A stretch of DNA of 64,000 nucleotides from Betaproteobacteria bacterium (GTDB taxonomy: Bacteria; Pseudomonadota; Gammaproteobacteria; Burkholderiales; SG8-41). The translations under genes and the position numbers were made by a program. Positions 22,559 to 57,805 of this stretch are shown piece after piece (positions within the stretch are counted from its first letter, which is position 1; every line of letters starts with the position of its first letter). The stretch lies in contig JACPTK010000099.1 of the NCBI GenBank assembly GCA_016192825.1, positions 62,001 to 126,000 of the forward strand, read 5' to 3'. The notes under the pieces were generated by a model. It saw only the letters and a program-made list of their open reading frames with translations, ran no database searches and was not told the origin of the DNA.

Positions 22559-22850
22559 ATGATCGTGCCGGTGCCGCCGGGCGGCAGCTCCGACATCCTA
22601 GGAGTTTGTCGGACTTAGCGCCGACAAACTCCTGATGCAAAACCGCCAGCGCAAAAGCGGAAGGAAAAGGCCCTGAAAACCCTGTTTTCAGCCTGCTCGC
22701 GCGCCCGTTGGAGGCCAAGAACGGTCGTCGTCCCGAATTTTAGTCGAAATTCGCAGGCGGTTTTGCTGTCAGCAGCCTGTCGGAATACCAAGTCCGACAG
22801 GCTGCTGGCGCGCAAGATCGGCTCCGGCATCGCCGAAGCGTGGGGCCAGC
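22559..22850 (+). pseudogene. Bug/TctC receptor gene fragment split by a repeat element
   Basis: Two short stretches fit consecutive parts of a Bug-family tricarboxylate receptor: MIVPVPPGGSSDI at 22559-22597 and LARKIGSGIAEAWGQ after 22805. Between them sits a 205-bp palindromic element (22600-22804), and CT is found at both joints. Removing the element and one CT restores GAC ATC CTG GCG CGC AAG, that is D-I-L-A-R-K, as expected for the family. Nothing Bug-like remains outside this stretch of about 28 codons, so it is a remnant. Confidence 0.6.
22600..22804. repeat. Composite palindromic (MITE-like) element, copy 1
   Basis: The element has a stem-loop AGGAGTTTGTCGG...CCGACAAACTCCT at the left, inner inverted arms GCAAAACCGCC / GGCGGTTTTGC, and a stem-loop CAGCCTGTCGG...CCGACAGGCTG at the right. 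A second copy lies at 52564-52770. No transposase is encoded; a minus-strand open frame of 71 codons in it is not convincing as a gene. Confidence 0.85.
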
Positions 22851-40703: not shown

Positions 40704-41681
40704 TTATTGGAGCTTGACGCCAGCCTCTTGTATCACCTTGCGCCATTTTGGAACCTCACGTGCCAGCTGTTTACGAAGGTCATCTTGCGTCCCAAGCAGC
40801 GGCGTCGCGCCAAATGTCAGCAGGCGCTCCCGGACTTCCGGTTCATTGAGGATTGACACGATCTCCCTATTCAACTTGCCGATGATTCGAGCCGGGGTTT
40901 TTACCGTACCATACATGCTGAACCAGCCGCTCGCGTCAAAGCCCGTCATGCCGGATTCGTCAAAGGACGGAACATCCGGAAGGATTGGCGTGCGCTTCGC
41001 CGTTGTTACAGCGAGCGGGTATAGCGAGCCCTTGCGTATGTAGGGCGCGAGCAGGACCACATTGTCCATTGCTACCTCCAGACGTCCCGCGAGGGCGTCT
41101 ACCAGCATGTCGCTGCTTCCTTTGTACGGAACGTACGTCATGTTGATTCCGGCCATGCGCTTGAAGATTTCACCGCTCAAGTGCTGTACCGTGCCAGCGG
41201 CGCCGGCGCCATGCGAGATCTTCCCGCTGTTCGCCTTGGCGTACTTGATCAGCCCGGCAACTGTCTTTACGCCGATCGAGGGATGGGCCACCATGACATA
41301 TGGCGTCGCTGCCACGAGCGCGACGGGCTCGAGATCCCGCTGTACGTCAAACTTCGCCTGGGTGTAAAGACTGCCGACGATGCTAATTGACGCACCCGCC
41401 AGCATCAGCGTGTAGCCATTCGGTTGCGATTGACCAACCAGCCGGGCGGCAATGATACCGCTGGCGCCTGACCGATTGTCCACCACTACCTGCTGCCCCA
41501 GCCGGGCAGTAAGTCGCCCTGCCACGAGCCGCGCAATCAAATCCGTGCTGCCTCCCGGAGAGACGCCAACTATCAATCTTATGGGCCGGGATGGATAACC
41601 CTGTTCCTGGGCCATTGCTGATACAGCTGTGATCGCCAGCATAGCGGCACCCGCCGCGGTCAACATGCGAAGAGTTGCCAT
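40704..41681 (-). CDS. Bug/TctC-family receptor (2)
   Basis: The 325-residue secreted receptor has a signal peptide ending VSAMAQ, YPSRPIRLIVGVSPGGSTDL, VVVDNRSGASGIIAARLV, MTYVPYKGSSDMLVDALAGR and PDVPSFDESGMTGFD. ATG 41681 is preceded by AGGAGG 7 bp upstream, so the longer open frame to 41750 is rejected. Codon use is visibly less GC-biased than in the dcw genes. It is last in the minus-strand set that starts with the CoA-transferase at 45.8 kb. Confidence 0.9.
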   Translation of the reverse strand: MATLRMLTAAGAAMLAITAVSAMAQEQGYPSRPIRLIVGVSPGGSTDLIARLVAGRLTARLGQQVVVDNRSGASGIIAARLVGQSQPNGYTLMLAGASISIVGSLYTQAKFDVQRDLEPVALVAATPYVMVAHPSIGVKTVAGLIKYAKANSGKISHGAGAAGTVQHLSGEIFKRMAGINMTYVPYKGSSDMLVDALAGRLEVAMDNVVLLAPYIRKGSLYPLAVTTAKRTPILPDVPSFDESGMTGFDASGWFSMYGTVKTPARIIGKLNREIVSILNEPEVRERLLTFGATPLLGTQDDLRKQLAREVPKWRKVIQEAGVKLQ

Positions 41682-41752
41682 CTCTTTCCTCCTTGTTCGT
41701 CCAGCAATGACAAAGATACTATTGGGGTCAATGACGCACGGCATCTGCAAAG

Positions 41753-42676
41753 CTAACCGTCCCTTTTGAGCAGGGCGGCAATCGCATCACCGGGGACCTT
41801 GATTTCTACGCCCGCACGCTCGTTTTGAAGCAACATCGCGGAGCGCGAATCGCGCTTAGCCCACCCGCGATTGACAGCCTCTGTCATTTCCGCATGCGCG
41901 AGGTTCGCTACTCGCATTGGGACGCCCAATTCACGCCCAAGCTCCGTTGCGAGCGCGATATCCTTTTGCGCCAGGTCCAGCGCAAAGTCAGCCGGTTCAA
42001 AAACGCCCTGAAGATACTGCTTGCCCAGCCGGTCGAATGTACGCAGCCTTCCAGTTGAACTTTGACGAACCGCACCCCATAAGGCCAACGGGTCAACGCC
42101 GGCTTTCACGCCAAGTGAGAAAACTTCCGCAAGCGCGGTTTGAATGGCATAGCCTGCGCAGTTATTGACGAGCTTCGCGATGGAACCCGCGCCGATCGGG
42201 CCGATATACAGGACTTCGCTGCTGATACCGTCAAGCAATGGGCGGTAACGGTTGAATGCCGTCTCGTCGCCGCCAACCCATACTGCAAGCAGCTTCCGCG
42301 GCGTTGGCGAAGGCGCGCCACCGCTTATCGGCGCGTCAAATACCTGAATGCCTTTCGAGCCGAAACGCGTGTGCAGCTTGCGTATCAAAGTGGGTGAGTT
42401 GGTGGAAAGATCGAACCATGCTGTGCCCGGTCGCATGCCTTCGATGAGCTGATCTGCAACCGACTCGACCTCGCGCGGCCCTGGCAATGACGTAAACACC
42501 ACCTCGGAATTTTCGGCTGCTTCGCGTGGACTGTCTGCCCATGTGGCGCCTGCCTGCAAATGTCGCGATGCCGCGTCCCGCCGCAGATCGTTTACTACCA
42601 GTTCGTGTCCCGCGGCACGCACGACAAGCGCTACTCGTCCCCCCATCGTGCCCAAGCCTATGAAACCTACGCGCAT
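41753..42676 (-). CDS. NAD(P)-dependent beta-hydroxyacid dehydrogenase (3-hydroxyisobutyrate dehydrogenase family)
   Basis: The 307-residue enzyme has the Rossmann start MRVGFIGLGTMGGRVAL, the substrate loop DAPISGGAPSPTPRKLLAVW (family DAPVSGG), and the catalytic lysine in GSIAKLVNNCAGYAIQ. Relatives reduce tartronate semialdehyde or oxidise 3-hydroxy acids. Next to a ThDP enzyme and a CoA-transferase, a role with a C2-C3 oxo acid or semialdehyde is likely. It is AT-richer than housekeeping genes here. Confidence 0.88.
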   Translation of the reverse strand: MRVGFIGLGTMGGRVALVVRAAGHELVVNDLRRDAASRHLQAGATWADSPREAAENSEVVFTSLPGPREVESVADQLIEGMRPGTAWFDLSTNSPTLIRKLHTRFGSKGIQVFDAPISGGAPSPTPRKLLAVWVGGDETAFNRYRPLLDGISSEVLYIGPIGAGSIAKLVNNCAGYAIQTALAEVFSLGVKAGVDPLALWGAVRQSSTGRLRTFDRLGKQYLQGVFEPADFALDLAQKDIALATELGRELGVPMRVANLAHAEMTEAVNRGWAKRDSRSAMLLQNERAGVEIKVPGDAIAALLKRDG

Positions 42677-42776: not shown

Positions 42777-44426
42777 CTAAGTCGCCGTTTTGGTAAATCG
42801 CACGGTAACCGCCCGCGCGGCAAAATCGGTCACGACGTTGACCAGCGCCGGCTTGCCGTTCTTGATCGCGTTCTTCGCCCGCTCCAGCGCCGGGCGGATG
42901 TCTTCCGGCTTCTCGACCTGCTCGCCGTGGCAGCCCAGGCTCTGTGCGAACAGGTCGAAGCGCGTGTAGCCGAGGTCGCGCCCCGGCTTCTCGCGCCTGG
43001 GATCGGCGGTCCAGCCGCCGTTCAGGCTGATGACGACGATCACCGGGATGTTGTGGCGCGCGGCCGTGTCGAACTCCATCGCGTTCAGGCCGAACGAGCC
43101 GTCGCCGTGCAGCACGACGACCTGCTTGTCGGGCCGAGCCACCTTGGCCCCGACCCCCATCGGCATGCCGACGCCCATGGTGCCGAACGTGCCGGAATTG
43201 ATACGGTGCCGGGGAAAGTACGTCGGGATGGACTGGCGCCCGTAGTTGAGGATCTCCTGCCCGTCCACCACCAGGATCGCGTCGCGGTCCAGAAAATCAC
43301 GCACTTCCTTGCACAGCCGCAGCGGGTGGATCGGCGTCTTGTCCGTGGACATGGCCTTTTCCTGCTCGAAGCGCTTCGACTCCTCGATCGCAGCGAGATG
43401 GCCGCGCCAGTCCGCGAACCGGCCGGCATCGACCCGCTTCCCGCCCGTCGCGAGCATCTGGCGCATCACGGTCCCGGCGTCGCCGACGATGCCGACGTCC
43501 AGGCGCGGGCTCGCGCCGACCTCGGCCGGGTCGATGTCGATGCGCACGACTTTCGCCGTGCCCGACATGCGGGGCGGCTTCAACTGGCCGAACACGTAGT
43601 TCAGCCGGGTGCCGACGACGAGAAACAGGTCCGCTTCCTTCATCGCCGTCGAGCGCGCGTTGAGGAACGCATGCGGGTGGTCTTCCGGCAGCACCCCGCG
43701 GCCCTGCGGGGTGGTATAGATCGGCATGCCGGTGGCTTCCACCCACTTCCGCAGCGCATCGGCGCCGTCGGACCACAGCACGCCGCTGCCCGACAGCACG
43801 ACCGGCCGGCTGGACTTCTCGATCAGCTTCAGCGCTTCCTCGATGAGCGCAGGGTCACCCTGCGGCTTGCTCCGCGCGAGCGTCCGAGAAAGGTCCGGCC
43901 ACGTCACCGAGGATTCCTCGACCTCGCCGTAGAGCACGTCGGACGGCAGGTCGAGGTACACCGGCCCCGGCTTGCCGGCGATCGAGCGCCGGAAAGCCGT
44001 GTCGATCATCTCCGGTATGCGGTGGGTTTCGTAAACGCGCTCCGCCCACTTGGTGACGGGCTTCATGATCGCAACCTGGTCGATTTCCTGGAACGTGCCG
44101 GTGCCGAATTCCTTGATCGGGCTCGCGCCGCCGAATGCGACGACCGGGCTGCAGTCGATCAGCGCGTGCGCAATCCCGGTGGTCAGGTTGATGGTGCCGG
44201 GACCGGAGGTCCCCAGGCACAGCCCGGGCTTGTTGGTCACCCGCGCGTAGGCGTGCGCCGACATGGCCGCCGCCTGCTCGTGGCGCACGTCGATGCCGCG
44301 CACGCCCTTCTTCATGGCGCTGGTCAGCGCGTCGTTGATAGGCCCGCCCATGATGAAGAACATCGTGTCCACGCCGATGCGCTTCAAAGTTTCGCCGACG
44401 AGCGCGTTGCCGCTGATGGTTGCCAT
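42777..44426 (-). CDS. ThDP-dependent enzyme, oxalyl-CoA decarboxylase / 2-hydroxyacyl-CoA lyase-like
   Basis: The 549-residue enzyme has the catalytic Glu in IDVRHEQAAAMSAHAYAR, GLCLGTSGPGTINLTTGIAH, GGPVYLDLPSD-like KPGPVYLDLPSDVLYG, and the ThDP/Mg loop LHGDGSFGLNAMEFDTAARH ending in SLNGGW. The INSGTFGTMGVGMPMGVGA motif resembles oxalyl-CoA decarboxylases more than acetolactate synthases. GGAGG lies 8 bp before ATG 44426. The CoA-transferase upstream could supply an acyl-CoA substrate. Confidence 0.8.
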   Translation of the reverse strand: MATISGNALVGETLKRIGVDTMFFIMGGPINDALTSAMKKGVRGIDVRHEQAAAMSAHAYARVTNKPGLCLGTSGPGTINLTTGIAHALIDCSPVVAFGGASPIKEFGTGTFQEIDQVAIMKPVTKWAERVYETHRIPEMIDTAFRRSIAGKPGPVYLDLPSDVLYGEVEESSVTWPDLSRTLARSKPQGDPALIEEALKLIEKSSRPVVLSGSGVLWSDGADALRKWVEATGMPIYTTPQGRGVLPEDHPHAFLNARSTAMKEADLFLVVGTRLNYVFGQLKPPRMSGTAKVVRIDIDPAEVGASPRLDVGIVGDAGTVMRQMLATGGKRVDAGRFADWRGHLAAIEESKRFEQEKAMSTDKTPIHPLRLCKEVRDFLDRDAILVVDGQEILNYGRQSIPTYFPRHRINSGTFGTMGVGMPMGVGAKVARPDKQVVVLHGDGSFGLNAMEFDTAARHNIPVIVVISLNGGWTADPRREKPGRDLGYTRFDLFAQSLGCHGEQVEKPEDIRPALERAKNAIKNGKPALVNVVTDFAARAVTVRFTKTAT

Positions 44427-44529
44427 ATCGAATCCTCCTGGTTGCCGGCCTGGTGAGCGGCCGTTGCAGTTGGGCTGAAACGGCTCCTGGCGCAGGGGTG
44501 CGTGAGGGGAATATCCCCTCATTCATTTC

Positions 44530-45780
44530 TCAGTCGCGGGTGCCTTTCTTCAGCGGGGTTTCCTTGATGTACTCCTGGATCTCCGCCTCGCTCATGCCCA
44601 GCCACTCGGACAGCAGCTCCGCGGTGTGCTGGCCCAGCAGCGGCGCGGTCTTCACCGGCACGTGCGAGTCGGACATCTTCACCGGCCACCCCGGGATGTG
44701 GAACTTGCCGCGTGTCGGATGCTCGATCTCCTCGAACATGCCGCGCTTGCGGAGGTGCGGGTCGTTCATCAACTCCTGCGTGTCGAACACCGCCCCCGCC
44801 GGCACCCCCGCATTCTGCATCTTTTCCATGGCCTCCTGCTTGGTGAACTGGGCGCACCAGTCGCCGACCAGCTTGTCGACGACCACGGCGTTCCGGACGC
44901 GCAGCTTGGGCGTCGCGAATCGCGGGTCGTCCTTGAGATCCTCGCGCCCCATGAGAGTGAGCAGGCGCTGCCAGTGCCAGTTGCCGGCGCGCGTGGAATA
45001 GACCATGAGCCAGTCATTGGGGCCGCCCGGCTTGCACTTGTACAGCTCGCTGGGCGCGGCCGCGCCCAGCGAGCTCTGGTTGCCGGTGCGCTCGACCGGC
45101 TTGCCATTCATCAGTTGCCCGGCGAAGCAGATGCGGTTGAAGTTGATCACCGAGTCCTGCATCGTCACCTCGACGCGCTGGCCGCGGCCGGTGCGGTGGC
45201 GCTGGTTGAGCGCGGCGAGGATGCCGATCAGGCAGTGCAGCCCCGCGCCGGTGTCGCCGACGTGCGGCCCCGGCCGCAGCGGCGGGCCGCCCGCCTCACC
45301 GGTGATGGCATAAGCGCCGCCCACCGCCTGCGCGATCATGTCGAAGCTGAGGTACTTGCCGTAGGGGCCGTCGGGCGCGAAGCCCTTTATCTGGGCGTAG
45401 ACGAGGCGCGGGTTGATCTTCTTCACATCCTCGTAGCCGAGCCCCAACCTCTCGATGCCGCCGGGCGACATGTTCTCGATCATGACGTCGGCCTTCTCGA
45501 GCAGCTTCGTCAGCACCGCCTTGCCGCGCGGCGACTTGAGGTCGCACACCATGCTGCGCTTGTTGGCGTTCATGATGACGAAGTAGTAGGAATCGAGATC
45601 GCCGCGCTCGGTGGAGGCGAAGCGCCCGTTCTCCCCGCCTTGCGGCTCGACCTTGCAGATTTCGGCGCCGAGCCACGCCAGCGACTCGGTGCAGGACGTG
45701 CCGGCCTCATACTGGGTCAGGTCGACGACCTTCACCCCGGCCAGCGCGGTATTTGTGTTCGTGTTGCTCGACTGATTCAT
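44530..45780 (-). CDS. Family III CoA-transferase (CaiB/BaiF, formyl-CoA transferase-like)
   Basis: The 416-residue enzyme transfers CoA between carboxylic acids through an aspartyl-anhydride. It shows VVDLTQYEAGTSCTESLAWLGAE, NANKRSMVCDLKSPRGK, MIENMSPGGIERLGL, KGFAPDGPYGKY and the catalytic-Asp segment GPHVGDTGAGLHCLIG. The gene lies 103 bp upstream of the ThDP enzyme on the same strand, an frc-oxc-like pair. Substrate not determined. Confidence 0.88.
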   Translation of the reverse strand: MNQSSNTNTNTALAGVKVVDLTQYEAGTSCTESLAWLGAEICKVEPQGGENGRFASTERGDLDSYYFVIMNANKRSMVCDLKSPRGKAVLTKLLEKADVMIENMSPGGIERLGLGYEDVKKINPRLVYAQIKGFAPDGPYGKYLSFDMIAQAVGGAYAITGEAGGPPLRPGPHVGDTGAGLHCLIGILAALNQRHRTGRGQRVEVTMQDSVINFNRICFAGQLMNGKPVERTGNQSSLGAAAPSELYKCKPGGPNDWLMVYSTRAGNWHWQRLLTLMGREDLKDDPRFATPKLRVRNAVVVDKLVGDWCAQFTKQEAMEKMQNAGVPAGAVFDTQELMNDPHLRKRGMFEEIEHPTRGKFHIPGWPVKMSDSHVPVKTAPLLGQHTAELLSEWLGMSEAEIQEYIKETPLKKGTRD

Positions 45781-46049: not shown

Positions 46050-46087
46050 TAGCAGCCTGTCGGAATTCCAAGTCCGACAGGCTGCTA
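46050..46087. repeat. Solo REP-like palindrome
   Basis: TAGCAGCCTGTCGGA and TCCGACAGGCTGCTA form a 15-bp perfect stem around ATTCCAAG. It is the same stem-loop as the right end of the composite elements at 22.6 and 52.6 kb. It contains the TAG stop of the gene at 46085-46942 and could act as its terminator. Confidence 0.85.
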
Positions 46088-46942
46088 GTGCAGGTAATTG
46101 GCCCGCCACTTTCTGTAATTATCCTCGCCCAGCAGGCGGCTCATCTCTTCCGGGGTAGCGATTTTGGACTTGAGATCCTCCGGCGCGCCGCCGGCGTAGA
46201 GATGGGCGTAGGTATCGCGCAACGCCTTGACCGACGCGGCAACGGCCGGATGACCCTGCAGGCAGAACCGCACGCCGCGCGCAGAAAGCTCTTCGCGCTT
46301 CACGCCCGGCATGGTGCCCATTATGATCGGCAGTCGGACCTCGGCGCGTATCGCGTCCAGGTCCTCCAGTTTTTTCATCCCGACGATGAACAGCGCGTCC
46401 ACCCCGGTCGCGGCGTAGGCCTTGGCGCGCGCGACGGCGCTTGCCGTTTTCTCGGACTTGAGCGAAGCCGAGCGGGCCACGACGAGCAGGGCCGGATCCC
46501 GCCGGGCGGCCACCGCAGCGCGCAGCTTGCCCGCCATCTCGTCCACCGACACGAGTTCGGTCGCGCTCTCGGACCCAAATCGCGCGGGCATGATCACGTC
46601 CTCGATCGCGACGCCGGATACGCCCGCATGTTCGAGCTCCTCGACCGTGCGCATTACGTTGAGCGCGTTGCCGTACCCGTTGTCCGCATCCACGAAGACG
46701 CTAAGGTTGCTCGCGCGCGTGATGCGGCGAAGCTGATCCGAGAACTCGGTGAGCGAGTGCAGCGCGAGGTCGGGCGCCGCCAGCATCGTCGCCGCGCACA
46801 CTGACCCGGAAAGTATTCCCACTTCGTAGCCCACGGATTCCGCGACGCGGGCCGACAGCGCGTCGAATACCGTGGCTGGGGAAACGCATCGGGGTCCGTT
46901 GAGGATTGCGCGAAAGCGCTGTCGCTTCTCGGTCGGCGTCAT
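46085..46942 (-). CDS. Isocitrate lyase / PEP mutase superfamily enzyme
   Basis: Members cleave or form C-C or C-P bonds next to a carboxylate (oxaloacetate decarboxylase, methylisocitrate lyase, PEP mutase). The 285 residues have VSPATVFDALSARVAESVGY, the metal-binding FVDADNGYGNALNVMRTVEEL, VAIEDVIMPARFG and ATGVDALFIVGMKK. The KKCGH active-site loop of true isocitrate and methylisocitrate lyases is replaced by MPARFGSES. It lies at the end of the comA-tcuA-bug-bug-capA operon. Confidence 0.85.
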   Translation of the reverse strand: MTPTEKRQRFRAILNGPRCVSPATVFDALSARVAESVGYEVGILSGSVCAATMLAAPDLALHSLTEFSDQLRRITRASNLSVFVDADNGYGNALNVMRTVEELEHAGVSGVAIEDVIMPARFGSESATELVSVDEMAGKLRAAVAARRDPALLVVARSASLKSEKTASAVARAKAYAATGVDALFIVGMKKLEDLDAIRAEVRLPIIMGTMPGVKREELSARGVRFCLQGHPAVAASVKALRDTYAHLYAGGAPEDLKSKIATPEEMSRLLGEDNYRKWRANYLH

Positions 46943-46987
46943 CGGCAGTGTCCTCCGTAGTCGGCGGATCGCGTCATGCGCGTGCGC

Positions 46988-48118
46988 CTACAACGTCGTT
47001 TCGACGACCACTTCCGCACCGTCGACGCGGAACTTGTGCGGATGCTGATCGGATACCCATTCCGTGAACTTGAGCACCTCCGCGAACTTCGGATCATCCG
47101 GGGAAACCACGTACGGCTGTGCGCGGTGGTTGATGTAAGCCGGCAGAAAGGATACGCGCTCCACCCCCTTCTTTCCGATAACCGCCTTGGGCAGCATTGT
47201 CATCCGGCAGTGGGTCGGGAAGTAATAACGGCCGTTCGGTGGCAGGCATTCCTCGTCTATGGGCAGCCAGATCAGGTTCCAGTCATAGGTCGAGCGCGCG
47301 GTCTTGGGGGCGCCGGTCGTCATCAGGTTGCCTACGCTGTAGAAGCACACCTTGCCCTTGTAGACTTCCACGGCCTTGATGGAGTGCGCGTGGTGCCCGA
47401 TGATCAGGTCGGCTCCGGCGTCGATCGCCACATGCGCGATGGGCGGCTGATAGGTGCAGATGGTCTTGGGGACAAGGCGCAGGCCCCAGTGGATCGACAA
47501 AACCACAACGTCGGCATGCTGTTTGGCATTGCGCACGTCCTCCTGCATCGCCTTCACGTCTTCCTCGTACGGCACGGTAACGATGCGTGGCGGCGTGCCC
47601 GGCTGAAACTCCTCCGGCAGATAGTGAGTATGCGCGCGCAGCGGCGCGATGCCAGCCTTGCCCTTTGCCGCGGCCTGGCCGTCGCGCAACACCGAGCAGT
47701 AGGCGAGAAATGCGATCTTGATGCCATTGCGCTCGATGATCGCGGGCTTGCGCGCCTCGTCCGCGTCCTTGCCGCCGCCGATCACAAGCTTGCCCTTGCC
47801 GCGAAACAGGTCGACCGTGTCCAGCATGGCCTCCGGGCCCCAGTCCATCGCGTGATTGCTCGCCACGGAAACGATATCGATACCGGCGGCATCCCAAACG
47901 CCGGCCATCCTCGGATGCAGACGGCTGTGCTGCCCGGTCGGCCCAGTGGAGTACTGGGGCATCCACCCGCGCTCCGAGTAAGTGCGCTCGCACTGCCCAA
48001 GACGGATATCCGCCTGTTTCAGCACCGGGGTGATTAATGCCGCGAACTCTTCCGTCGGCTCGTACACGGGTCCGATGTCCCCGCCGCTCATCAACGTTAC
48101 GGTCTGCTTTTCGGCCAT
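46988..48118 (-). CDS. CapA family protein (metallophosphatase-like, PGA_cap domain)
   Basis: The 376-residue protein has the CapA core: LMSGGDIGP, a QADIRLGQCERTYSERG segment, DIVSVASNHAMDWGPEAMLDT, VVVLSIHWGLRL and LIIGHHAHSIKAVEVYKGKV, with the histidine and aspartate ligands of a calcineurin-like metal site. CapA was named for poly-gamma-glutamate synthesis, but this copy has no membrane segment and lies between Bug receptor and PEP-mutase-family genes, so a hydrolytic catabolic role is as likely. ATG 48118 is preferred over 48313. Confidence 0.82.
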   Translation of the reverse strand: MAEKQTVTLMSGGDIGPVYEPTEEFAALITPVLKQADIRLGQCERTYSERGWMPQYSTGPTGQHSRLHPRMAGVWDAAGIDIVSVASNHAMDWGPEAMLDTVDLFRGKGKLVIGGGKDADEARKPAIIERNGIKIAFLAYCSVLRDGQAAAKGKAGIAPLRAHTHYLPEEFQPGTPPRIVTVPYEEDVKAMQEDVRNAKQHADVVVLSIHWGLRLVPKTICTYQPPIAHVAIDAGADLIIGHHAHSIKAVEVYKGKVCFYSVGNLMTTGAPKTARSTYDWNLIWLPIDEECLPPNGRYYFPTHCRMTMLPKAVIGKKGVERVSFLPAYINHRAQPYVVSPDDPKFAEVLKFTEWVSDQHPHKFRVDGAEVVVETTL

Positions 48119-48149
48119 ATCCTTACCTTTTAACTTTGGTCCGCGCGCT

Positions 48150-49148
48150 TCACTTGACCTGCAATTTAATCTGCCGGACCAGATCCGAGAACCGCTTGAT
48201 CTCCTGGCGCAGCCTTTCGCCAAACTGCGCGGGTGTGCTCGCGGCCGGCTCCGCGGCCTGAGCTGCGAGTTGGTCGCGCAGGTCTTTTTGCTGAAGGGAT
48301 GTAAGCACGGCACCGTTTAGTCGAGCGATGATCGTTCCCGGTACCGCCCGCGGCGCCAGCAGCCCGTACCAGGAGCTGAATTCATAGCCGGCGACCCCGC
48401 TCTCGCGCAGAGTAGGAATGTCCGGGAGGGCGTTCGAACGTTGAGCTGTCGTGACCGCCATCGCCCGCACTCTGCCTGCCTTCACCTGTGGCAGCGCGGT
48501 TATCGGGCTGAGAATCATGGCCTGGGTCGTCCCGGCAACCGTATCGATGAGCGCCTGTGAAATTCCCTTGTACGGTATGTGCACAATATCGATGCCCGTG
48601 CCCACCCGGAACATTTCCATGGCGAGATGCGCCGCGGTGCCGGTACCGGCCGAAGCGTAGTTGATCTGTCCCGGCTTGGCCTTCGCAACAGCGACCAGCT
48701 CTCGCACGGATTTGACGGGAAGCGACGGGTGCACGATCAACATGAATGGCGTCGTTGCGATCATCGAAATCGGCGCGAAATCCTTGATCGGGTCGTACGG
48801 CAGCTTGCGGAACAACCCGGCGTTGATCGCGTGGACGGTGTTCGCGATCATGAACGTGTAGCCATCCGGCGCGGCGCGAGCCGTTAGTTCCGTGCCAATG
48901 ATGTTGCTCGCTCCCGGCCGATTGTCCACGATCACCTGCCGCGACAGCGTGTCCGACATCTTCTGTGCGACCATGCGCGCGACCGTGTCGGCGCCGCCGC
49001 CCGCGGAGAACGGGGCGATCATCCGCAGCGGCCTGACGGGAAATGTCTCGGCAGCGTGGCCGGCGACCGGGCTGAGCAGGTGGACCGCTAGGAACAGGGC
49101 ACCTGCCGCGTGCCGCGCAGTCCCCTTCATTGCGGTCGCGCGGCTCAT
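48150..49148 (-). CDS. Bug/TctC-family receptor (3)
   Basis: The 332-residue secreted receptor has a signal sequence ending SPVAGHAAE, FPVRPLRMIAPFSAGGGADT, VIVDNRPGASNIIGTEL, VHIPYKGISQALIDTVAG and PDIPTLRESGVAGYEFSSWY. It is closer to receptor 1 (38.1 kb) than to its operon neighbour receptor 4. Its ATG overlaps the receptor 4 stop (ATGA). Confidence 0.9.
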   Translation of the reverse strand: MSRATAMKGTARHAAGALFLAVHLLSPVAGHAAETFPVRPLRMIAPFSAGGGADTVARMVAQKMSDTLSRQVIVDNRPGASNIIGTELTARAAPDGYTFMIANTVHAINAGLFRKLPYDPIKDFAPISMIATTPFMLIVHPSLPVKSVRELVAVAKAKPGQINYASAGTGTAAHLAMEMFRVGTGIDIVHIPYKGISQALIDTVAGTTQAMILSPITALPQVKAGRVRAMAVTTAQRSNALPDIPTLRESGVAGYEFSSWYGLLAPRAVPGTIIARLNGAVLTSLQQKDLRDQLAAQAAEPAASTPAQFGERLRQEIKRFSDLVRQIKLQVK

Positions 49149-50146
49149 TTCGCCAACCCGAGGCCGGTCAGCACGACCTTTAGCTCGTCGTACTGACGCT
49201 TGTATTCATCCGCGCTGGGCCCGGAACGCATGAAATTTTCGACCCACAGGTTCTTCTCGATCTCACGCTTCCATTCCTCGGTTGCCACCAGCTTCTCGAG
49301 CGCCGCCTCCCAGAAACGCACCTGGTCGGCGGGCGTGCCGCGCGGCGCGGCGACGCCACGCCAGTTATTCCCGATGGCGTCCGCACCCAATTCGCGCCAG
49401 GTCGGCACGCCGGCTAGAGGGCCCGCCAGCCGGGCCGGTGCGGCCACCGCGACGACGCGCATCTTCCCGCCCTTGGCGAGCCGGACGAGGTTGGACGCCG
49501 TGGTGGCGATGAAATCGACGTGCCCGCCCAGCGTCGCGGTCACGGCCTCGCCTGATGCTTTGAACACCACCACCTTTAGGCGCTTCAGGTCGATGCCGGC
49601 GGCCTTCATCAGCATGCCGATCGCGATGTGATTGTGATTGCCCGCGCTGGTCGCGATGGCGGCGCTGTGCGCCGCCGGATCCTGCTTCAGGCGCTCGAGC
49701 AGTTCGCGGGCGTCCTTAACCGGCGAATCCGACCTGATGGCGAAACCGACAAACTCGGAAAAGAGTTGTGCAACCGGCACTACGTCGGTATGGGTCGGCT
49801 TGTTTACGCCGACGATGTGGTTGGTGAGCAACGTCGGCGACGTCGTGAGCATATAGTGGCTATTGCCGGCATGCTGGTTCAGATACGCGAGTCCGATGCC
49901 GCCTCCGCCGCCGGGCTTGTTGATGACGGTCGTCGGCACCGACAGGAGCTGCCGGTTCTGAATGATGGTTTGCATGACGCGTGCCGTGCGGTCCTGCGCG
50001 CCCCCGGGGCCGGTGGTGACGATGATCTCGACGTTGCGTTCTGGAGACCAGTCGGCCGCTTGCGTTCCTGGCTGAAATACTGCCAGCGAGAGCAGAACCG
50101 CCACGCCTGCCGCGAAGTTGCTTGTCTTGCGTGATTGCGATTTCAT
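49145..50146 (-). CDS. Bug/TctC-family receptor (4), divergent
   Basis: The 333-residue receptor has a signal peptide ending PGTQAA, then VEIIVTTGPGGAQDRTARV in place of the usual PFxxGG loop, VINKPGGGGGIGLAYLNQHA, and GVPTWRELGADAIGNNWRGV. The altered first loop suggests another ligand than receptor 3. AGGAGG lies 8 bp before ATG 50146. Two receptor genes in tandem in one operon is unusual. Confidence 0.88.
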   Translation of the reverse strand: MKSQSRKTSNFAAGVAVLLSLAVFQPGTQAADWSPERNVEIIVTTGPGGAQDRTARVMQTIIQNRQLLSVPTTVINKPGGGGGIGLAYLNQHAGNSHYMLTTSPTLLTNHIVGVNKPTHTDVVPVAQLFSEFVGFAIRSDSPVKDARELLERLKQDPAAHSAAIATSAGNHNHIAIGMLMKAAGIDLKRLKVVVFKASGEAVTATLGGHVDFIATTASNLVRLAKGGKMRVVAVAAPARLAGPLAGVPTWRELGADAIGNNWRGVAAPRGTPADQVRFWEAALEKLVATEEWKREIEKNLWVENFMRSGPSADEYKRQYDELKVVLTGLGLAK

Positions 50147-50208
50147 GGTTGGACCCTCCTCGGTCAATTGGATTTAAATGACACGAATCGTTTCTGCGTC
50201 GCTCCCGG

Positions 50209-51732
50209 TCAGGAGGCGGCCGGCCGGACCTTCGCGTGCTTCGCCGCGTTCGTTCCGGCCACCTTGCCGAAGACGGCCCCGCTGGTTAGCCCGGAGCCGC
50301 CCGGATAGTTGAAGTAGAAGATCCCGCCAACGATCTCTCCCGCCGCGAACAGCCCCGGAATCGCCGCGTTCATCTGGTCAAGCACTTCGGCCTCAGGATT
50401 GATTTTGATGCCCCCGAAGGTGAAGGTCACGCCGCAGGTGATGGCGAAGGCCTGGAACGGCGGCGTGTCGAGCTTCCGGGCCCAGTTCGACTTGGGGATC
50501 GCAAGGCCGGTGGTGCCGAGCCCGTCCTTGATCGTGGGGTTGAACGGCACGGTGCCGCTCGCGGCGGCGTTGTATTCATTGAGCGTCTTCAGGAGCTGGG
50601 CCTGGTCGACGCCTTCCATTTTCGCGACCAGCCCTTCGAGCGTGTCGGCCGTCACCTTGGTGCAATTGCGCCCGCGGTATTCCTCCCGCAGCAGCATCTC
50701 GACCTTTGCGTCGTAGATCTGCCAGGCGAACTGTCCTGGCTGCTCGAGCACCACATGGCCGTACTTGGCATAGGTGTAGGGCCGCAGGTCGGCCCCCTCG
50801 TCGACGAAGCGCTTGCCCTCCGCGTTGATCATCAGGCCGTACGGGTAGGAATGCCGCTGGAAACTGGTTCTCAGCGCGACTTCCCCGTAATCGGTCGCGT
50901 AGCGCTCCCAGCCGACCGCGTGACATCCGGACCAATGCCCGTAGGGCTGCGCGCCCACCTCGATCGCCATCTGGATGCCATCGCCGGTATTGAAGCGGGT
51001 GCCGCGCACTTTTGCGAGATCCCAGCCCTTGCCGAGGTAGCGCGTGCGCCATTCGGCATTGGCCTCGAAGCCGCCGCAAGCCAGCACGACTGCGCGCGCA
51101 TGGTGCGTCTCCGTTTTCCGGCCGCGGATCACTTCGACGCCGTGTATCCCCTCTTCGTCGTGGAGCAGCCGCGTGACGCGGCTGCCGTACGCCACCTGGA
51201 CGCCTTCGCGCACCGCCGTCGCAAAGAGCGCGTCCACGACGCCGATTCCGCCGCCCGACACCGTGATCGTGAGGCCGCCCCAGAACTTGACACGGCCGTC
51301 CAACTTGAACGACTGGCGGCCGTAATAGGGCAGGAAACGCACGCCCTTGCCCCGCATCCAGACCAGCGTATCCAGGCTGTGCCTGACGATGACTTCGCAC
51401 AGGTCCGGATTCGTCCGGTATTGCGTCACCCGCGCCATGTCATCGAAAAATTGCTCCTCCGAGTAGCTGCCGAAGTCGGTATTGGCGATCTCTTCCGGGG
51501 TCAGGTCCGGGACCAGCTTCCGGATATCCTCGACGCCTTGGTACACGGTGCGCCAGTTGCCGCCGGCAAATCCCGAATTGCCGCCGCGCTGGTCTTCGGG
51601 GGCCCGCTCGAACAGCTTGACGCTGGCCCCCGTTTCGCGCGCCGCCAGCGCGGCGCACAGCGCCGCGTTGCCGCCGCCCACGACGATCACGTCGACCGCT
51701 GATTTCCCGTCCATGCTCTTGCCGTCCGCCAC
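50209..51732 (-). CDS. FAD-dependent oxidoreductase, tricarballylate dehydrogenase (TcuA)-like
   Basis: The 507-residue flavoprotein has the FAD loop VIVVGGGNAALCAALAARE, RGGNSGFAGGNWRTVY, the ACGGFEANAEWR motif of the fumarate-reductase/TcuA group, and FTFGGIKINPEAEVLDQM with LFAAGEIVGGIFYFNYPGGS. TcuA oxidises tricarballylate to cis-aconitate in Salmonella. No TcuB or TcuC partner is seen. It is 9 bp downstream of the comA-like gene. Confidence 0.85.
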   Translation of the reverse strand: MADGKSMDGKSAVDVIVVGGGNAALCAALAARETGASVKLFERAPEDQRGGNSGFAGGNWRTVYQGVEDIRKLVPDLTPEEIANTDFGSYSEEQFFDDMARVTQYRTNPDLCEVIVRHSLDTLVWMRGKGVRFLPYYGRQSFKLDGRVKFWGGLTITVSGGGIGVVDALFATAVREGVQVAYGSRVTRLLHDEEGIHGVEVIRGRKTETHHARAVVLACGGFEANAEWRTRYLGKGWDLAKVRGTRFNTGDGIQMAIEVGAQPYGHWSGCHAVGWERYATDYGEVALRTSFQRHSYPYGLMINAEGKRFVDEGADLRPYTYAKYGHVVLEQPGQFAWQIYDAKVEMLLREEYRGRNCTKVTADTLEGLVAKMEGVDQAQLLKTLNEYNAAASGTVPFNPTIKDGLGTTGLAIPKSNWARKLDTPPFQAFAITCGVTFTFGGIKINPEAEVLDQMNAAIPGLFAAGEIVGGIFYFNYPGGSGLTSGAVFGKVAGTNAAKHAKVRPAAS

Positions 51733-51741
51733 GGCGTGCGC

Positions 51742-52548
51742 CTATTTCCCGCGCGAGTACGTCGCCGTCCGGTTGAAAGTCGGGTGCTTCCCCCATGCCC
51801 CGATGCGCGAGGCCTCCAGCGGCAGGGCCCGCGCGATATCGACGAACAAGTTCAGGTGCGGGCCGTGGTCGCAGATGTAGCGCGTATAGACGTGAGGGTC
51901 GTCCGCCTCCAGCATGACCGCGTTGATGTCGATCGCCGCGGCGATCTTCGACGCAACGTCGAAACGATATTCATTGGGATGGCGGCTCTCGGTGATGCCC
52001 TCGGATTCGAGCAGGACTTTCCATGCGCCGGCCTCGAGGCAGGCCTTCATGGTCGTCAGGAGCCGGTCCAAGTCCAGGTTAACCTTCTCCTCCGCCGTGA
52101 TCCCGTAAGCCACGCCGGCCTCGGCGATCGGGTGGATGCCGCGCGCCTTGACCTCCCGCACGAGCTCGCACAGGTCGGACAGGGAAAGGATGACGACCGA
52201 GCGGCAGACCTCGAGATACTGGATGCCCATGCCCTGCACCTGGTCGAGAAACCGCTTGACGGTTTCCCGGCCCTGCAGCAATGCATTCTCGAGCAGGGGC
52301 CCGCCCAACCCGATCCCCACGTTGAAATCCTTGCAAACCGCGACTTTCTCCGCGATCAGCTTGCGCGTCTGCAGGCGTGGCGCGAAAGCCGCCAGCTTCA
52401 AAATGTCGATGTAGTCGGCGCTCGCCTCGAATGCGTCCACGATGGACTTGATGCCGAGCCCCCTGTCGCGGGCGTAGGTGATGCCGCGGTCGCGCGGCTT
52501 GCGCGGACGCTCTGTCAACTCGATGGAATCGAACGCCAATTCGTCCAT
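51742..52548 (-). CDS. Phosphosulfolactate synthase (ComA) family protein
   Basis: ComA joins sulfite to phosphoenolpyruvate, giving (R)-phospho-3-sulfolactate. The 268-residue TIM-barrel product has RPRKPRDRGITYARDRGLGI, SADYIDILKLAAFAPRL, VGIGLGGPLLENAL, VLLESEGITES and LEADDPHVYTRYI, which fit the family. No ComB or ComC homologue is visible, so the bacterial reaction may differ. It is the first gene of a minus-strand operon and faces a CysB-like regulator. Confidence 0.82.
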   Translation of the reverse strand: MDELAFDSIELTERPRKPRDRGITYARDRGLGIKSIVDAFEASADYIDILKLAAFAPRLQTRKLIAEKVAVCKDFNVGIGLGGPLLENALLQGRETVKRFLDQVQGMGIQYLEVCRSVVILSLSDLCELVREVKARGIHPIAEAGVAYGITAEEKVNLDLDRLLTTMKACLEAGAWKVLLESEGITESRHPNEYRFDVASKIAAAIDINAVMLEADDPHVYTRYICDHGPHLNLFVDIARALPLEASRIGAWGKHPTFNRTATYSRGK

Positions 52549-52563
52549 TGCATCCTCCGCCCT

Positions 52564-52770
52564 AGGAGTTTGTCGGACTTAGGGCCGACAAACTCCTAAA
52601 TGCAAAACCGCCTGCGCGAAAACGAAAGAAAAAGGCAGTGAAAACCTTTATGTTCAGCCTGCTCGCGTGCCCGTTCGAGGCTAATAAGGGTCGTCATCCC
52701 GTATTTCATTCGAAATTCGCAGGCGGTTTTGCTGTGAGCAGCCTGTCGGAATGCCAAGTCCGACAGGCTG
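52564..52770. repeat. Composite palindromic (MITE-like) element, copy 2
   Basis: This has the same architecture as the copy at 22600-22804: AGGAGTTTGTCGG stem-loop, GCAAAACCGCC / GGCGGTTTTGC inner arms, CAGCCTGTCGG stem-loop at the right, flanked by CT on both sides. The two copies are readily alignable but clearly diverged in the middle. It lies in the regulatory gap between the comA-like operon and the divergent LysR gene. Confidence 0.85.
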
Positions 52771-52902
52771 CTAGGCGGCACGGTGACCGTTGCCGGAAGC
52801 GCCCGCGCCTTCCGGGCGTCCCGCCGGGCGCCGCATCGGCTTATTTGAGCCGAAACGTTAGCGATTCGGGGCCGGCAAATAAAAGAACTATTTATTCTCG
52901 GG

Positions 52903-52908
52903 TATAAT
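52903..52908 (+). promoter_or_regulatory. -10 element of the CysB-like regulator gene
   Basis: TATAAT stands in a locally AT-rich stretch 26 bp before the ATG at 52935. No good -35 hexamer is found 16-18 bp upstream, so the promoter may be weak or activator-dependent. Confidence 0.5.
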
Positions 52909-52934
52909 TTCTAGTTATCCTGGAACGTAAAATC

Positions 52935-53852
52935 ATGACCCTGCAACAGCTCCGCTACCTGTGCGAGATTGTGCGCCGGGGGCTGCACCTTTCCCAGGCC
53001 GCCGATGCGCTCCATACCTCGCAGCCGGGCGTCAGCAAGCAGGTGCAGCTTCTCGAACGCGAGCTCGGTGTGGTGATATTCAACCGCAAGCGCAACCGGC
53101 TCCTGGGCCTGACGGCCGTCGGCAGGGACATCCATCGCTACGCCGAGAAGACGCTCCAGGAGGCCGAGAACATCCGCAGCGTCAGCCAGGAGTCGAGGAA
53201 CGAGCTGACCGGCAACCTGGTGATCGCGACCACGCACACCCAGGCGCGCTATGCGCTGCCCCAGGTCATACGCACGTTCCGCCTGAAATTTCCGCGCATC
53301 CTGTTCGAGTTCTGGCTCGGCACGCGCGAGGAAGTCTTCCGGCGCGTCGAGGCGGACCAGGCGGACTTGGCCATCGGCACCGATTGCGGCATGGCATTCG
53401 ACGGCGTTTCGCTGCTGCCCTACGGGCGCCTGCAGCACAGCGTTGTGACCTGCCCCGGCCACGAACTGCTGCGGCTGCGCGCCCCCACGCTGGACATCGT
53501 CGCCCGGTATCCGCTGATCACGCACGCTTTCGACGGAGACGGCCAATGGAAGCTGGCCCGGTTCTTCGAATCCCGCGGCCTCAAGCCCAATATCATCTTC
53601 CGCGCCGTGGATGCGGACGTCTGCAAGGCCTACGTGGAGCTCGGTATGGGCATCTCGATCCTGGCGAGCGTCGCCTACGACAAGGCGCGGGACCGGCACT
53701 TGCGCGCGATCGGCGCCGATCACCTGTTCGAGCCCGAGACGCTTTTCGTCGGGCTGAACCGGCGGCGCTTTCATCGCCAGTTCGTTTACGATTTCCTCGA
53801 GAAGCTTTCGCCCGCCCTCACCCGCGAGAAGACCGAGGAGGCGGCCCGGTAG
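52935..53852 (+). CDS. LysR-family transcriptional regulator, CysB/Cbl group
   Basis: The 305-residue protein matches CysB closely in layout: MTLQQLRYLCEIV, ALHTSQPGVSKQVQLLEREL (HTH recognition helix), then VIATTHTQARYALPQVIRTF, DADVCKAYVELGMGISILAS and FLEKLSPALTRE. CysB and Cbl control sulfate and sulfonate assimilation. Transcribed away from a phosphosulfolactate-synthase-like operon, it is its likely regulator. MmgE and ThDP genes follow on the same strand. Confidence 0.92.
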   Translation: MTLQQLRYLCEIVRRGLHLSQAADALHTSQPGVSKQVQLLERELGVVIFNRKRNRLLGLTAVGRDIHRYAEKTLQEAENIRSVSQESRNELTGNLVIATTHTQARYALPQVIRTFRLKFPRILFEFWLGTREEVFRRVEADQADLAIGTDCGMAFDGVSLLPYGRLQHSVVTCPGHELLRLRAPTLDIVARYPLITHAFDGDGQWKLARFFESRGLKPNIIFRAVDADVCKAYVELGMGISILASVAYDKARDRHLRAIGADHLFEPETLFVGLNRRRFHRQFVYDFLEKLSPALTREKTEEAAR

Positions 53853-53946: not shown

Positions 53947-55299
53947 ATGCCCACTGCTTCGCAGGCTCTTTCGGAGTTCGCGCTCGCGCTGCGCTACGAG
54001 CAGATTCCCGCCAACGTCATCGAGCGCGCCCGCTCCTGCATCATCGACACGATAGGCGCCGCTTTTTACGGCTCGCGCCTTCCCTGGAGCCGGATCGTCC
54101 TGGATTTCGCCCGGATCAACGGCGCCGCAGGAGATGCGGACGTGATCGGCGCCGGTATCAAGCTCCGCCCGCCGTTCGCCGCGATGGTAAACGGTGCCTA
54201 CGCGCACGCCTTCGAGCTGGACAGCATGTGCCAGCCGAGCGTAGGCGCCCATCCAGGCGCGTCCCTCGGCACGCCCGGGCTGGCCGTGGCACAGACCTTC
54301 CGCGCAAGCGGCAAGGACCTTCTCACCGCGTTCGTCGCCGGCTGCGAGGTGATGTATCGAATCGGCGAGGCCGCGCATCACTCGAGCGAGCGCCTGGGGT
54401 TTCACGCGCCGGGGCTCCTGGGCGTCTTCGGCGGCGCCGTGACGGCGGGACGGCTCATGGGCCTGGACGCGGGGCGCATGGCCAACGCGCTCGGTATCAG
54501 CGGCTCACTTTGCTGCGGGCTGCTGGAGTTCTCGAAGTCGGGCGGCGGCATGGTGAAGCGCTTGCACCAGGGCCGGGCCAGCGAGGGCGCGGTGACCGCC
54601 GCAATGCTGGCGCGAGAGGGCTACGCGGGCCCGCCCGCCGTGCTGGAAGGAAAGTTCGGTTTCCTGAACGTGTTCTGCCGCGACGCGGACGTGACGCGCC
54701 TGACCGCCGACCTGGGCAAGGAATGGCGCACGCTGAGGACGACCCTCAAGCGCTACGCCTGCCACAGCACCGCCCATGTCGCCGTGACGGCAGCGCTCGA
54801 GCTGAAATCGCGCGAGGGCATTTCAGGCGGCGATATCGACTCCATACGCATCGCGGGCAGCGAGAAGCTCGTCAGCCACCACCAGATCAGCGAGCCCACG
54901 GACGTGGCCATGGCGCAGTACAGCGCGCCCTTCAGCGTGGCGCTCGCATTTTTCCGCGACCCCCGGGATCCCAGCGTGTTCTCCGACGAGTCCCTGAACG
55001 ATGCCGCGATACGCGCGTTGTGCCGCAAGGTCACCCTGGAGCACTACGCGGACGGGCCCAGGGACAACAAGCTCGCCAGCCGCGTCATCGTCCGGATGAA
55101 GGACGGCCGCGAGCTCAAGCAGGACATGGAGTATTTCCCGGGGATGCCCCAGCGCCCGCTGAATACGGAACAACTCTGGGAAAAATTCAGCCGTTTGACC
55201 CCTGCCTTGCCGGGAGAGCGGGCACGCCGCCTCTTCGATCGGCTGCTCGAGCTGGAAAAGTTCGGCGATCTCGGGGAGCTCGACCTGGGCGCCGCATAG
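53947..55299 (+). CDS. MmgE/PrpD family protein (3)
   Basis: The 450-residue protein has IIDTIGAAFYGSRLPWSRIV, VNGAYAHAFELDSMCQPSVG (family histidine/aspartate region), GCEVMYRIGEAAH, ALGISGSLCCGL and KRYACHSTAHVAVTAALEL. It lies 94 bp after the CysB-like regulator on the same strand and may be under its control. The reaction is unassigned; related enzymes dehydrate or isomerise tri- or dicarboxylates. Confidence 0.88.
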   Translation: MPTASQALSEFALALRYEQIPANVIERARSCIIDTIGAAFYGSRLPWSRIVLDFARINGAAGDADVIGAGIKLRPPFAAMVNGAYAHAFELDSMCQPSVGAHPGASLGTPGLAVAQTFRASGKDLLTAFVAGCEVMYRIGEAAHHSSERLGFHAPGLLGVFGGAVTAGRLMGLDAGRMANALGISGSLCCGLLEFSKSGGGMVKRLHQGRASEGAVTAAMLAREGYAGPPAVLEGKFGFLNVFCRDADVTRLTADLGKEWRTLRTTLKRYACHSTAHVAVTAALELKSREGISGGDIDSIRIAGSEKLVSHHQISEPTDVAMAQYSAPFSVALAFFRDPRDPSVFSDESLNDAAIRALCRKVTLEHYADGPRDNKLASRVIVRMKDGRELKQDMEYFPGMPQRPLNTEQLWEKFSRLTPALPGERARRLFDRLLELEKFGDLGELDLGAA

Positions 55300-57277: not shown

Positions 57278-57628
57278 ATGCGCGCCGCCAAGAGACGAGC
57301 CAAGCCCGGCTCCGTGGGCAAAGGCCGCTTTTTTCACATCGTCGTGAGGCCAAACGCGCAATTCGTCCGCTTTCGCGTCCAGGATATCGGAACCCGCGGC
57401 GGCGTCGAGCGCGTCGCCGGCCAGCGCAGCAACGGCACCTGGGACACGGTGAAATGGCTGGTCGAGAAAACCCACGCGCACGTCCATGGCAAAAGCCTGG
57501 TCGCCGATAGTGCCGAGGCGCGCAAGCTGCTGCGCAGCCTGGGCTCGGCGCCGGCGCACATCGGCGGCGACCGGTTCCAGGCACGACCGCGCGCCAAGAT
57601 TTCCGAGAGCGAAAAACCCACACCGTGA
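57278..57628 (+). CDS. Small basic hypothetical protein
   Basis: Function unknown. The 116-residue product MRAAKRRAKPGSVGKGRFFH... has regular hydrophobic spacing (IVVRPNAQFVRFRVQDIG; NGTWDTVKWLVEKTHAHV) that looks like a real small alpha/beta fold, with a polar C-terminal tail. ATG 57278 is chosen; upstream in-frame codons belong to repeat-rich DNA. Confidence 0.55.
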   Translation: MRAAKRRAKPGSVGKGRFFHIVVRPNAQFVRFRVQDIGTRGGVERVAGQRSNGTWDTVKWLVEKTHAHVHGKSLVADSAEARKLLRSLGSAPAHIGGDRFQARPRAKISESEKPTP

Positions 57629-57753
57629 CCGCGCCGCGCCTGGAAACGCAACATCCGCAAGGCGCGGCAGGCAAGGCGCAGGAAACGCTGAAGGGCGAGA
57701 ATGAAGGCGGAGGGAGGAAGGAGAAAGGAAAAACCCGTTAGGTAGGCTGCTCC

Positions 57754-57802
57754 CTCTCTCGTTTCTCGTTTCTCGTTTCTCGTTTCTCGTTTCTCGTTTC
57801 TC
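57754..57802. repeat. Perfect GTTTCTC array downstream of tctAB
   Basis: CCCTCTC followed by six identical GTTTCTC units, the most regular array in the window, 3 bp from the tctAB stop. Confidence 0.9.
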
Positions 57803-57805
57803 ACC

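Follow-up and report, generated by a model that had tools for sequence, protein, structure and literature searches.

The gene set at the locus

The DNA analysed here is a stretch of 64,000 nucleotides (hereafter the window) from the Betaproteobacteria bacterium assembly GCA_016192825.1, spanning positions 62,001 to 126,000 of contig JACPTK010000099.1. We examined a minus-strand run of six genes in the window, encoding in order proteins of the ComA, TcuA, Bug, Bug, CapA and phosphoenolpyruvate (PEP)-mutase/isocitrate-lyase (PEPM) families, separated by 9, 41, -4, 31 and 45 bp and divergent from a CysB-family regulator. All genes named in the original prediction, which had been made from the letters alone, were recovered near their predicted positions by Pfam and NCBIfam scans of the window proteins. 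The scans confirmed every family in the operon, as well as the MmgE/PrpD and thiamine diphosphate (ThDP) enzyme genes that follow the regulator. A minus-strand receptor, a TctA protein and a small open reading frame lie beyond these plus-strand genes. The features are as follows.

51742..52548, minus strand: ComA-family protein from a non-canonical subfamily, heading the operon (PF02679, 176 bits; motif ESEG[IL]TE ... NLFVD)
50209..51732, minus strand: TcuA-like protein of the flavin adenine dinucleotide-dependent tricarballylate dehydrogenase family (NF006130, 579.5 bits, above the cut-off of 369)
49145..50167, minus strand: Bug/TctC-type receptor (73.8 bits, cut-off 27; 72% ortholog in the related genome G004)
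48150..49148, minus strand: Bug/TctC-type receptor (245.9 bits)
46988..48118, minus strand: CapA/PGA_cap-family protein (PF09587, 187.5 bits; start from the gene caller, the open frame reaching 48313)
46085..46942, minus strand: PEPM-superfamily protein, sixth gene (PEP_mutase, 132.5 bits; nearest solved relative PA4872 oxaloacetate decarboxylase)
52935..53852, plus strand: CysB-family LysR-type regulator (below the CysB cut-offs)
53947..55299, plus strand: MmgE/PrpD-family protein (PF03972, 213 bits; PF19305, 92.9 bits)
55304 or 55481 (start) to 57160, plus strand: acetolactate-synthase-like ThDP enzyme (Xsc model, 289 bits against a cut-off of 676)
57806..59782, minus strand: TctA (PF01970, 389 bits)
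59895..60989, minus strand: divergent receptor beside TctA (TctC, 22.3 bits, under the cut-off of 27)
57334..57813, minus strand: small open reading frame at the usual TctB position (no family match; assigned to TctB by position only)

Class and genomic partners of the ComA-family protein

Canonical ComA acts by conjugate addition to PEP. The window protein shares with the canonical enzymes of M. jannaschii (1qwg) and B. subtilis (YitD, 1u83) the Pfam family, the barrel, and the positions K43, E103, E133, E168, E205 and N224 (M. jannaschii numbering). These six residues were retained in 87/87 rows of an alignment comprising the window protein, a paralog on contig C53 of the same genome and 85 further rows of their clade, aligned with five canonical-type rows. 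In other respects the window protein departs from the canonical enzymes. It scored 95.7 bits against TIGR03849, the phosphosulfolactate synthase equivalog model, whose cut-off is 280. In a tree of 59 rows, left from 176 after thinning of those more than 75% identical to another, a canonical clade (support 99/96) comprised the two solved enzymes plus a single L009-type sequence. The window protein fell outside it, in a clade (98/97) with the C53 paralog, a protein from a Rhodospirillales metagenome-assembled genome (MAG) and SAR11/SAR116-type proteins, and a cross-phylum group adjoined this clade. Lys137, a residue considered catalytic in canonical ComA, was retained in none of the 87 rows (Ala in 45, Gln in 40, Val in 1, Thr in 1), and Arg170 had given way to Glu in all 87. 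The RESG loop of the five canonical-type rows was absent from all 87 clade rows, as well as from 29 included rows belonging to other subfamilies, and inspection by eye found it in none of the 11 ComA copies of this genome. Trp46 and Thr48 are likewise missing from the window protein.

An AlphaFold2 model of the protein had a mean predicted local distance difference test score of 88.3. Foldseek returned as its top match a designed particle built on this fold, followed by 1qwg and 1u83 (TM scores by query 0.78 and 0.75; 23-25% identity). The barrel and its probable acid/base residues thus remain, whereas positions particular to the canonical enzymes have been lost. On the TIGR03849 score, the separate clade, the absent RESG loop and the replaced Lys137 and Arg170, we rejected phosphosulfolactate synthesis as its activity; the protein is very probably not a phosphosulfolactate synthase.

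The original prediction had suggested that the substrate might be a sulfonated or a polycarboxylic acid. TcuA, the receptors, TctA and MmgE agree with a polycarboxylic acid, but the sulfonate part of the proposal does not hold up. A C3-sulfonate pathway, in which ComA would make phosphosulfolactate and the CysB-like regulator would sense sulfur status, could draw on the PF02679 membership, on the CysB-family regulators found within 5 kb of ComA at two other loci (L047 and L055), and on a real Xsc gene in this genome. That gene, however, lies on another contig, the ComA-family protein is non-canonical and has polycarboxylate genes as its neighbours, and no scanned gene of the cluster reached a sulfonate-family cut-off (beyond the cluster, the genome was searched for Xsc only). 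We regard this pathway as most improbable. With 864 bits against a cut-off of 676, the Xsc gene (G000 C1:59746-61428) points to the handling of a sulfonate by the organism outside the window cluster. The window ThDP enzymes were rejected as Xsc, being under its cut-off.

At least 21 of 92 ComA genes, from 21 of the 46 ComA-bearing genomes of the family and counting that of the window, immediately precede a TcuA gene of like orientation; the count of 92 excludes three fragmentary rows (two on G050 C67, one on G012 C14). The hidden Markov model (HMM) matches of the paired genes are 85-154 bp apart. For ordered ComA-to-TcuA pairs closer than 300 bp, 0.011 would be expected at random (taking 4-Mb genomes and the listed TcuA only) against the 21 seen. 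The pairing exceeds chance. The 20 non-window genomes belong mostly to one genus and do not represent 20 origins. Seven of their loci were inspected, and all seven carried, in this order, a SnoaL-like gene, ComA, TcuA and a class II aldolase, in one case with TcuB between. The motifs IDYAKI and EFGRKN, common to their ComA proteins, mark a subfamily other than that of the window.

In six further inspected loci (L108, L194, L195, L197, L198 and L199), TcuA stands in a LeuC-LeuD-TcuA-PEPM run, with no ComA within the stretch inspected. CapA comes next in the run, as seen on the maps of four loci and by separate searches in L108 and L194. Behind this run (L198:3976-11806 and the five others), Bug and MmgE genes follow in several cases. 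To our knowledge no pathway has been described for a LeuC-LeuD-TcuA-PEPM-CapA run. TcuA thus couples either with an aconitase-family hydratase or with a ComA-family protein, and this is our main reason for proposing hydration as the role of ComA.

The closest relatives of the window TcuA are found in G060 (83%), G004 (83%), G048 (79%) and G050 (70%), and parts of the window set accompany each of them: Bug (72%), CapA (79%) and MmgE (71%) in G004; Bug (55%), CapA (75%) and PEPM (66%) in G048; Bug (55%) and CapA (78%) in G060; and MmgE (68%) in G050. Because MmgE recurs near the TcuA orthologs of G004 and G050, the MmgE gene that follows the regulator is probably part of the same set as the operon. 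The original prediction had proposed a search for conserved ComA-TcuA-CapA linkage. What was found is a linkage in parts, namely the ComA-TcuA pairs, the LeuC-LeuD-TcuA-PEPM runs with CapA, and these subsets in four relatives, while the exact trio occurred in the window only, among the loci examined.

Relatives of the window ComA were sought in named genomes as well. A single-protein scan returned none; a scan with the subfamily alignment returned at least 528, from SAR11, SAR116, haloarchaea and many other lineages. Among the gene neighbourhoods of the best 80, 33 contained MmgE/PrpD, 41 had TctA directly upstream of ComA and 6 had neither, with no overlap between the first two sets. In the 33 MmgE/PrpD-linked loci the two genes were always on the same strand and mostly adjacent, MmgE being downstream in L149, L151 and L173 and otherwise upstream. 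In annotated plasmid records, MmgE/PrpD lies upstream of ComA, within 60 bp for Methylosinus trichosporium OB3b and for Salinibacter ruber, at 1.7 kb for Haladaptatus and at 3.5 kb for Halorussus; in the record of a Natrinema halophilum plasmid, whose gene table is incomplete, no MmgE/PrpD was seen nearby. In an MmgE tree, from which rows of 350 aa or less (the partners of L154 and L184) and the L060 partner were left out, the ComA-partner proteins formed one clade of 32 rows (100/100) drawn from 28 of 31 partner loci and all four plasmid loci; the partners of L109, L111 and L173 lay outside it. We found no paper in the open-licence PubMed Central (PMC) literature linking phosphosulfolactate synthase to MmgE or treating such a linkage. 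The ComA of L109, from the Rhodospirillales MAG, is the closest to that of the window among the named-genome matches listed (53%), and an isopropylmalate-synthase-like gene (L109:3173-3799) lies directly upstream of it and downstream of an MmgE/PrpD gene.

The 41 TctA-linked loci, among L112-L182, come from SAR11, SAR116 and other proteobacteria. SAR11 and SAR116 are very abundant in the sea. In 39 of the 41 a second ComA-family gene lies on the opposite strand; Pfam matches verified TctA and the two ComA genes of L114, as well as the second ComA of L115 and that of L112, a locus that also has a LacI-type regulator in the block. No published description of this receptor-TctA-ComA block was found in the open-licence PMC literature. 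The window TctA is 46-59% identical to the TctA of all 41 loci and the divergent window receptor 34-39% identical to their receptors, against 29-37% and 22-27% for a control TctA and receptor from contig C49 of the same genome. The SAR11-type receptors, which have no Pfam match or one of 11.8 bits, are so named by this identity to the TctC-like window protein and by their position before TctA. They score 191-220 bits with the window receptor, whose next relative among the island proteins compared scores 74 bits, and neither Bug receptor of the operon matched them at an E-value of 1e-3. With the shared transporter type and the shared ComA clade, the window holds both halves of the SAR11-type unit, though 5 kb apart. 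It differs from that block in that the transporter lies past the regulator, in the addition of TcuA, CapA, PEPM and MmgE, and in the absence of the second ComA type from the cluster. On contig C49, a ComA of another subfamily (L043) adjoins a receptor-TctA pair of a different type.

The SAR11-type arrangement, with ComA following receptor and TctA and with a second ComA opposite, looks as if ComA itself did the breakdown. Together with the retained TIM-barrel and acid/base residues, it agrees with a ComA-like protein that cleaves C-C or C-heteroatom bonds of a polycarboxylate as a lyase or aldolase, in the reverse of the canonical addition, and is not a hydratase. Against this, the inspected TcuA-linked ComA loci, the window, C53 and L109 also contain an enzyme for C-C chemistry from a different family (class II aldolase, PEPM superfamily or isopropylmalate-synthase-like), and we consider such a lyase unlikely. 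Among the cross-phylum MmgE loci, a PEPM match was seen in L173 only.

Other enzymes, the regulator and the repeats

The nearest solved structure to the PEPM protein is PA4872 oxaloacetate decarboxylase (3b8i; 2.4e-60, 207 bits), well ahead of the next (5.4e-33, 118 bits). Scores against TIGR02320 (105.5, cut-off 319.55) and TIGR02317 (184.9, cut-off 354.4) fall short of the PEP mutase and methylisocitrate lyase cut-offs. We rejected a role as PrpB-like C-C lyase, as the alignment shows no Cys loop of the kind present in 3eoo and the nearest relative is PA4872. The MmgE protein exceeds the cut-offs of PF03972 and PF19305 and scores 32.8 against 950 for the PrpD equivalog, its nearest solved relatives being IDS epimerase and cis-aconitate decarboxylase. 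The CapA protein is over the PF09587 cut-off, and its nearest solved relatives, 8gqb and 8gq9, were deposited as capsule proteins and correspond to the epimerase MslH, against whose equivalog model the window protein scores 101.5 (cut-off 700). We rejected a capsule role, as no other capsule family occurs among the scanned neighbours.

Several known systems resemble parts of this set. The methylcitrate cycle and the 2,3-dimethylmalate route employ PrpD, aconitase or DmdAB, and PrpB or DML. As in these, dehydratase-family and PEPM-superfamily genes occur together in the window, and the sister loci have a LeuD/DmdB-type small subunit. Unlike them, the window PEPM is of the PA4872 type, ComA replaces aconitase, and no PrpC is found among the scanned window genes. 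Methylsuccinate isomerase activity is reported for MmgE/PrpD proteins from Cupriavidus necator and Pseudomonas aeruginosa (PMC12290011). The itaconate/methylsuccinate cluster of that study, like the window, combines MmgE/PrpD with a class III coenzyme A (CoA)-transferase in beta-proteobacterial organic-acid catabolism. The scanned window genes differ from it in having no acyl-CoA dehydrogenase, itaconyl-CoA hydratase or citramalyl-CoA lyase, and in adding TcuA, CapA and ComA. Among the best matches listed from the open-licence PMC literature, no description of a TcuA/CapA/PEPM-type gene set was found.

The regulator had been called a close CysB relative. Membership of the CysB family holds, but the protein is below the cut-offs of both the CysB model (PRK12681, 302.7 against 436) and the CysB-subfamily model (PRK12684, 342.1 against 402). 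At an E-value of 1e-40 the genome encodes six proteins of this family, with a 483-bit CysB copy on C81. Two of the six adjoin MmgE, at 113 bp in the window and 200 bp on C33 (between HMM matches). A repeat element with two hairpins fills 215 of the 386 bp between the regulator and ComA, so a shared promoter is not evident, and control of the operon by the CysB-like protein is unproven.

The repeat belongs to a REPIN-like family of hairpin pairs with the core TGTCGGACTTRG, set about 181 bp apart in inverted orientation. The core motif has 197 matches genome-wide (104 + 93) against 0 for a reversed control, and the family occurs in the window at 52561-52775, 22590-22815, 46051-46086 and 16322. 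On the other side of the operon, four more genes start about 300 bp past PEPM; these, together with TctA and its divergent receptor, make the gene set wider than first noted. The features flanking the operon on this side, and the two repeats, are:

44530..45780, minus strand: class III CoA-transferase (CaiB), formyl-CoA-transferase-like (under the cut-offs)
42777..44522, minus strand: ThDP enzyme, acetolactate-synthase/oxalyl-CoA-decarboxylase-like (under the listed cut-offs)
41753..42676, minus strand: HIBADH-like dehydrogenase, 3-hydroxyisobutyrate/tartronate-semialdehyde-reductase-like (family scan)
40704..41750, minus strand: Bug/TctC-type receptor (family scan)
52561..52775, no strand: REPIN-like element, two perfect hairpins with 14-bp arms in inverted orientation, on the ComA side of the divergent intergenic region
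46051..46086, no strand: one hairpin from this repeat family, which overlaps the PEPM stop codon (edges by eye)

A proposed polycarboxylate route

From the family memberships, gene order, loss of canonical residues, recurring partnerships and receptor-TctA type, all observed directly, we infer the reactions, their order and the substrate. The window gene set is likely to serve the uptake and catabolism of a polycarboxylate, probably a branched acid resembling tricarballylate or methylsuccinate. The TcuA and MmgE/PrpD families include makers of alpha,beta-unsaturated polycarboxylates. The receptors and TctA would import the acid, and the TcuA-like flavoprotein would desaturate it at the alpha,beta position. 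Water may then be added across the new double bond by the ComA-family enzyme, acting as a Michael-type hydratase or dehydratase in the place held beside TcuA by an aconitase-family hydratase in the sister operons. The MmgE/PrpD and CapA-family proteins could adjust stereochemistry or the position of the double bond; decarboxylation of a 2-oxo acid by the PA4872-like enzyme could then lead toward central metabolism. A polycarboxylate catabolic set with TcuA desaturation, ComA-like hydration and decarboxylation is the best explanation we can offer for the whole, with a probability of roughly 0.45; the hydratase role of ComA taken by itself is tentative.

A number of observations weigh against this explanation. 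The window TcuA misses the TIGR02485 cut-off (292.2 against 372.55), and a search for TcuB, confined to the scanned genes of the window, found none. Compared with TcuABC, the tricarballylate utilization system of which TcuC is a part, the window has a TcuA above the NF006130 cut-off, and a related genome, G002, has ComA, TcuA and TcuB together, but the window uses Bug receptors and TctA in place of TcuC. The ComA paired with TcuA elsewhere is of the other subfamily, which keeps Lys137 in its 5/5 aligned rows. We know of no PF02679 protein with hydratase activity. No ComA adjoins the orthologous TcuA sets of G004, G048, G060 and G050, and ComA is missing altogether from G048 and G060; it is therefore dispensable to that set, and on gene content it looks like an addition special to the TcuA set of this genome. 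A TcuA match was found in none of the 80 neighbourhoods of window-type ComA, and MmgE in none of the 41 that are TctA-linked, so ComA there works without either, at least next door. The window MmgE lies outside the cross-phylum partner clade, among Bug-type island relatives, and we rejected it as an ortholog of the cross-phylum ComA partner. Finally, 6 of the 11 ComA genes of this genome lie within 3 kb of an MmgE, against 35 of 150 Bug genes (Fisher p = 0.03), and in a genome so rich in Bug and MmgE genes some such neighbours are expected by chance.

Several of these points suit a catabolic mosaic, in which the genome shuffles its Bug, MmgE/PrpD, CapA, TcuA, PEPM and ComA paralogs within islands and ComA is a chance neighbour of TcuA with some other substrate, perhaps that of the receptor-TctA pair 5 kb away. 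The assembly (5.1 Mb in 123 contigs, 96% complete, 5% contaminated) contains 11 PF02679 and 87 MmgE/PrpD genes over cut-off, along with at least 150 Bug/TctC receptors (150 of 303 candidates scored), 15 CapA genes and at least 17 TcuA genes (18 of 75 candidates scored). The paralog expansion of MmgE/PrpD and TctC receptors is very large for 5.1 Mb. ComA-family genes occur in 46 of 74 genomes of the family, this one included, at 0 to 11 each, and among 14 control genomes in B. subtilis and M. jannaschii only. Gene orders are shuffled at other loci, four relatives keep the orthologous TcuA set with no adjoining ComA, ComA is nearer MmgE than the Bug genes are only at the p-value given, and 41 loci pair ComA with receptor and TctA in the absence of TcuA and MmgE. 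Against a mosaic stand the spacing of only 9 bp between ComA and TcuA, the excess of ComA-to-TcuA adjacency, which spans two ComA subfamilies, and contig C53, where PEPM, ComA and MmgE are again consecutive and ComA is a 58%-identical paralog of the window protein. We judge a mosaic rather doubtful, and prefer the polycarboxylate route with ComA as the putative hydratase.

Extended to the family, the proposal becomes more speculative. Most non-canonical proteins annotated as phosphosulfolactate synthase might form a new enzyme class acting on unsaturated or hydroxylated polycarboxylates, as Michael-type hydratases or lyases, recruited beside TcuA, MmgE/PrpD and tripartite tricarboxylate transporters. 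The SAR11 receptor-TctA-ComA block could be a minimal uptake-and-breakdown unit for a single acid, and the window operon a second route that shares the transporter type and the ComA clade, with ComA standing in for aconitase.

The more valuable result is that a ComA subfamily of wide distribution is linked with polycarboxylate genes and occurs in SAR11 with the transporter type of the window, a sharing that suggests a related substrate for the window and SAR11. A protein family whose name comes from a single sulfonate reaction seems to include further activities in the catabolism of organic acids. If the members of this subfamily are polycarboxylate hydratases or lyases, hundreds of annotations are misleading, and carboxyl-rich organic matter would gain a testable route.

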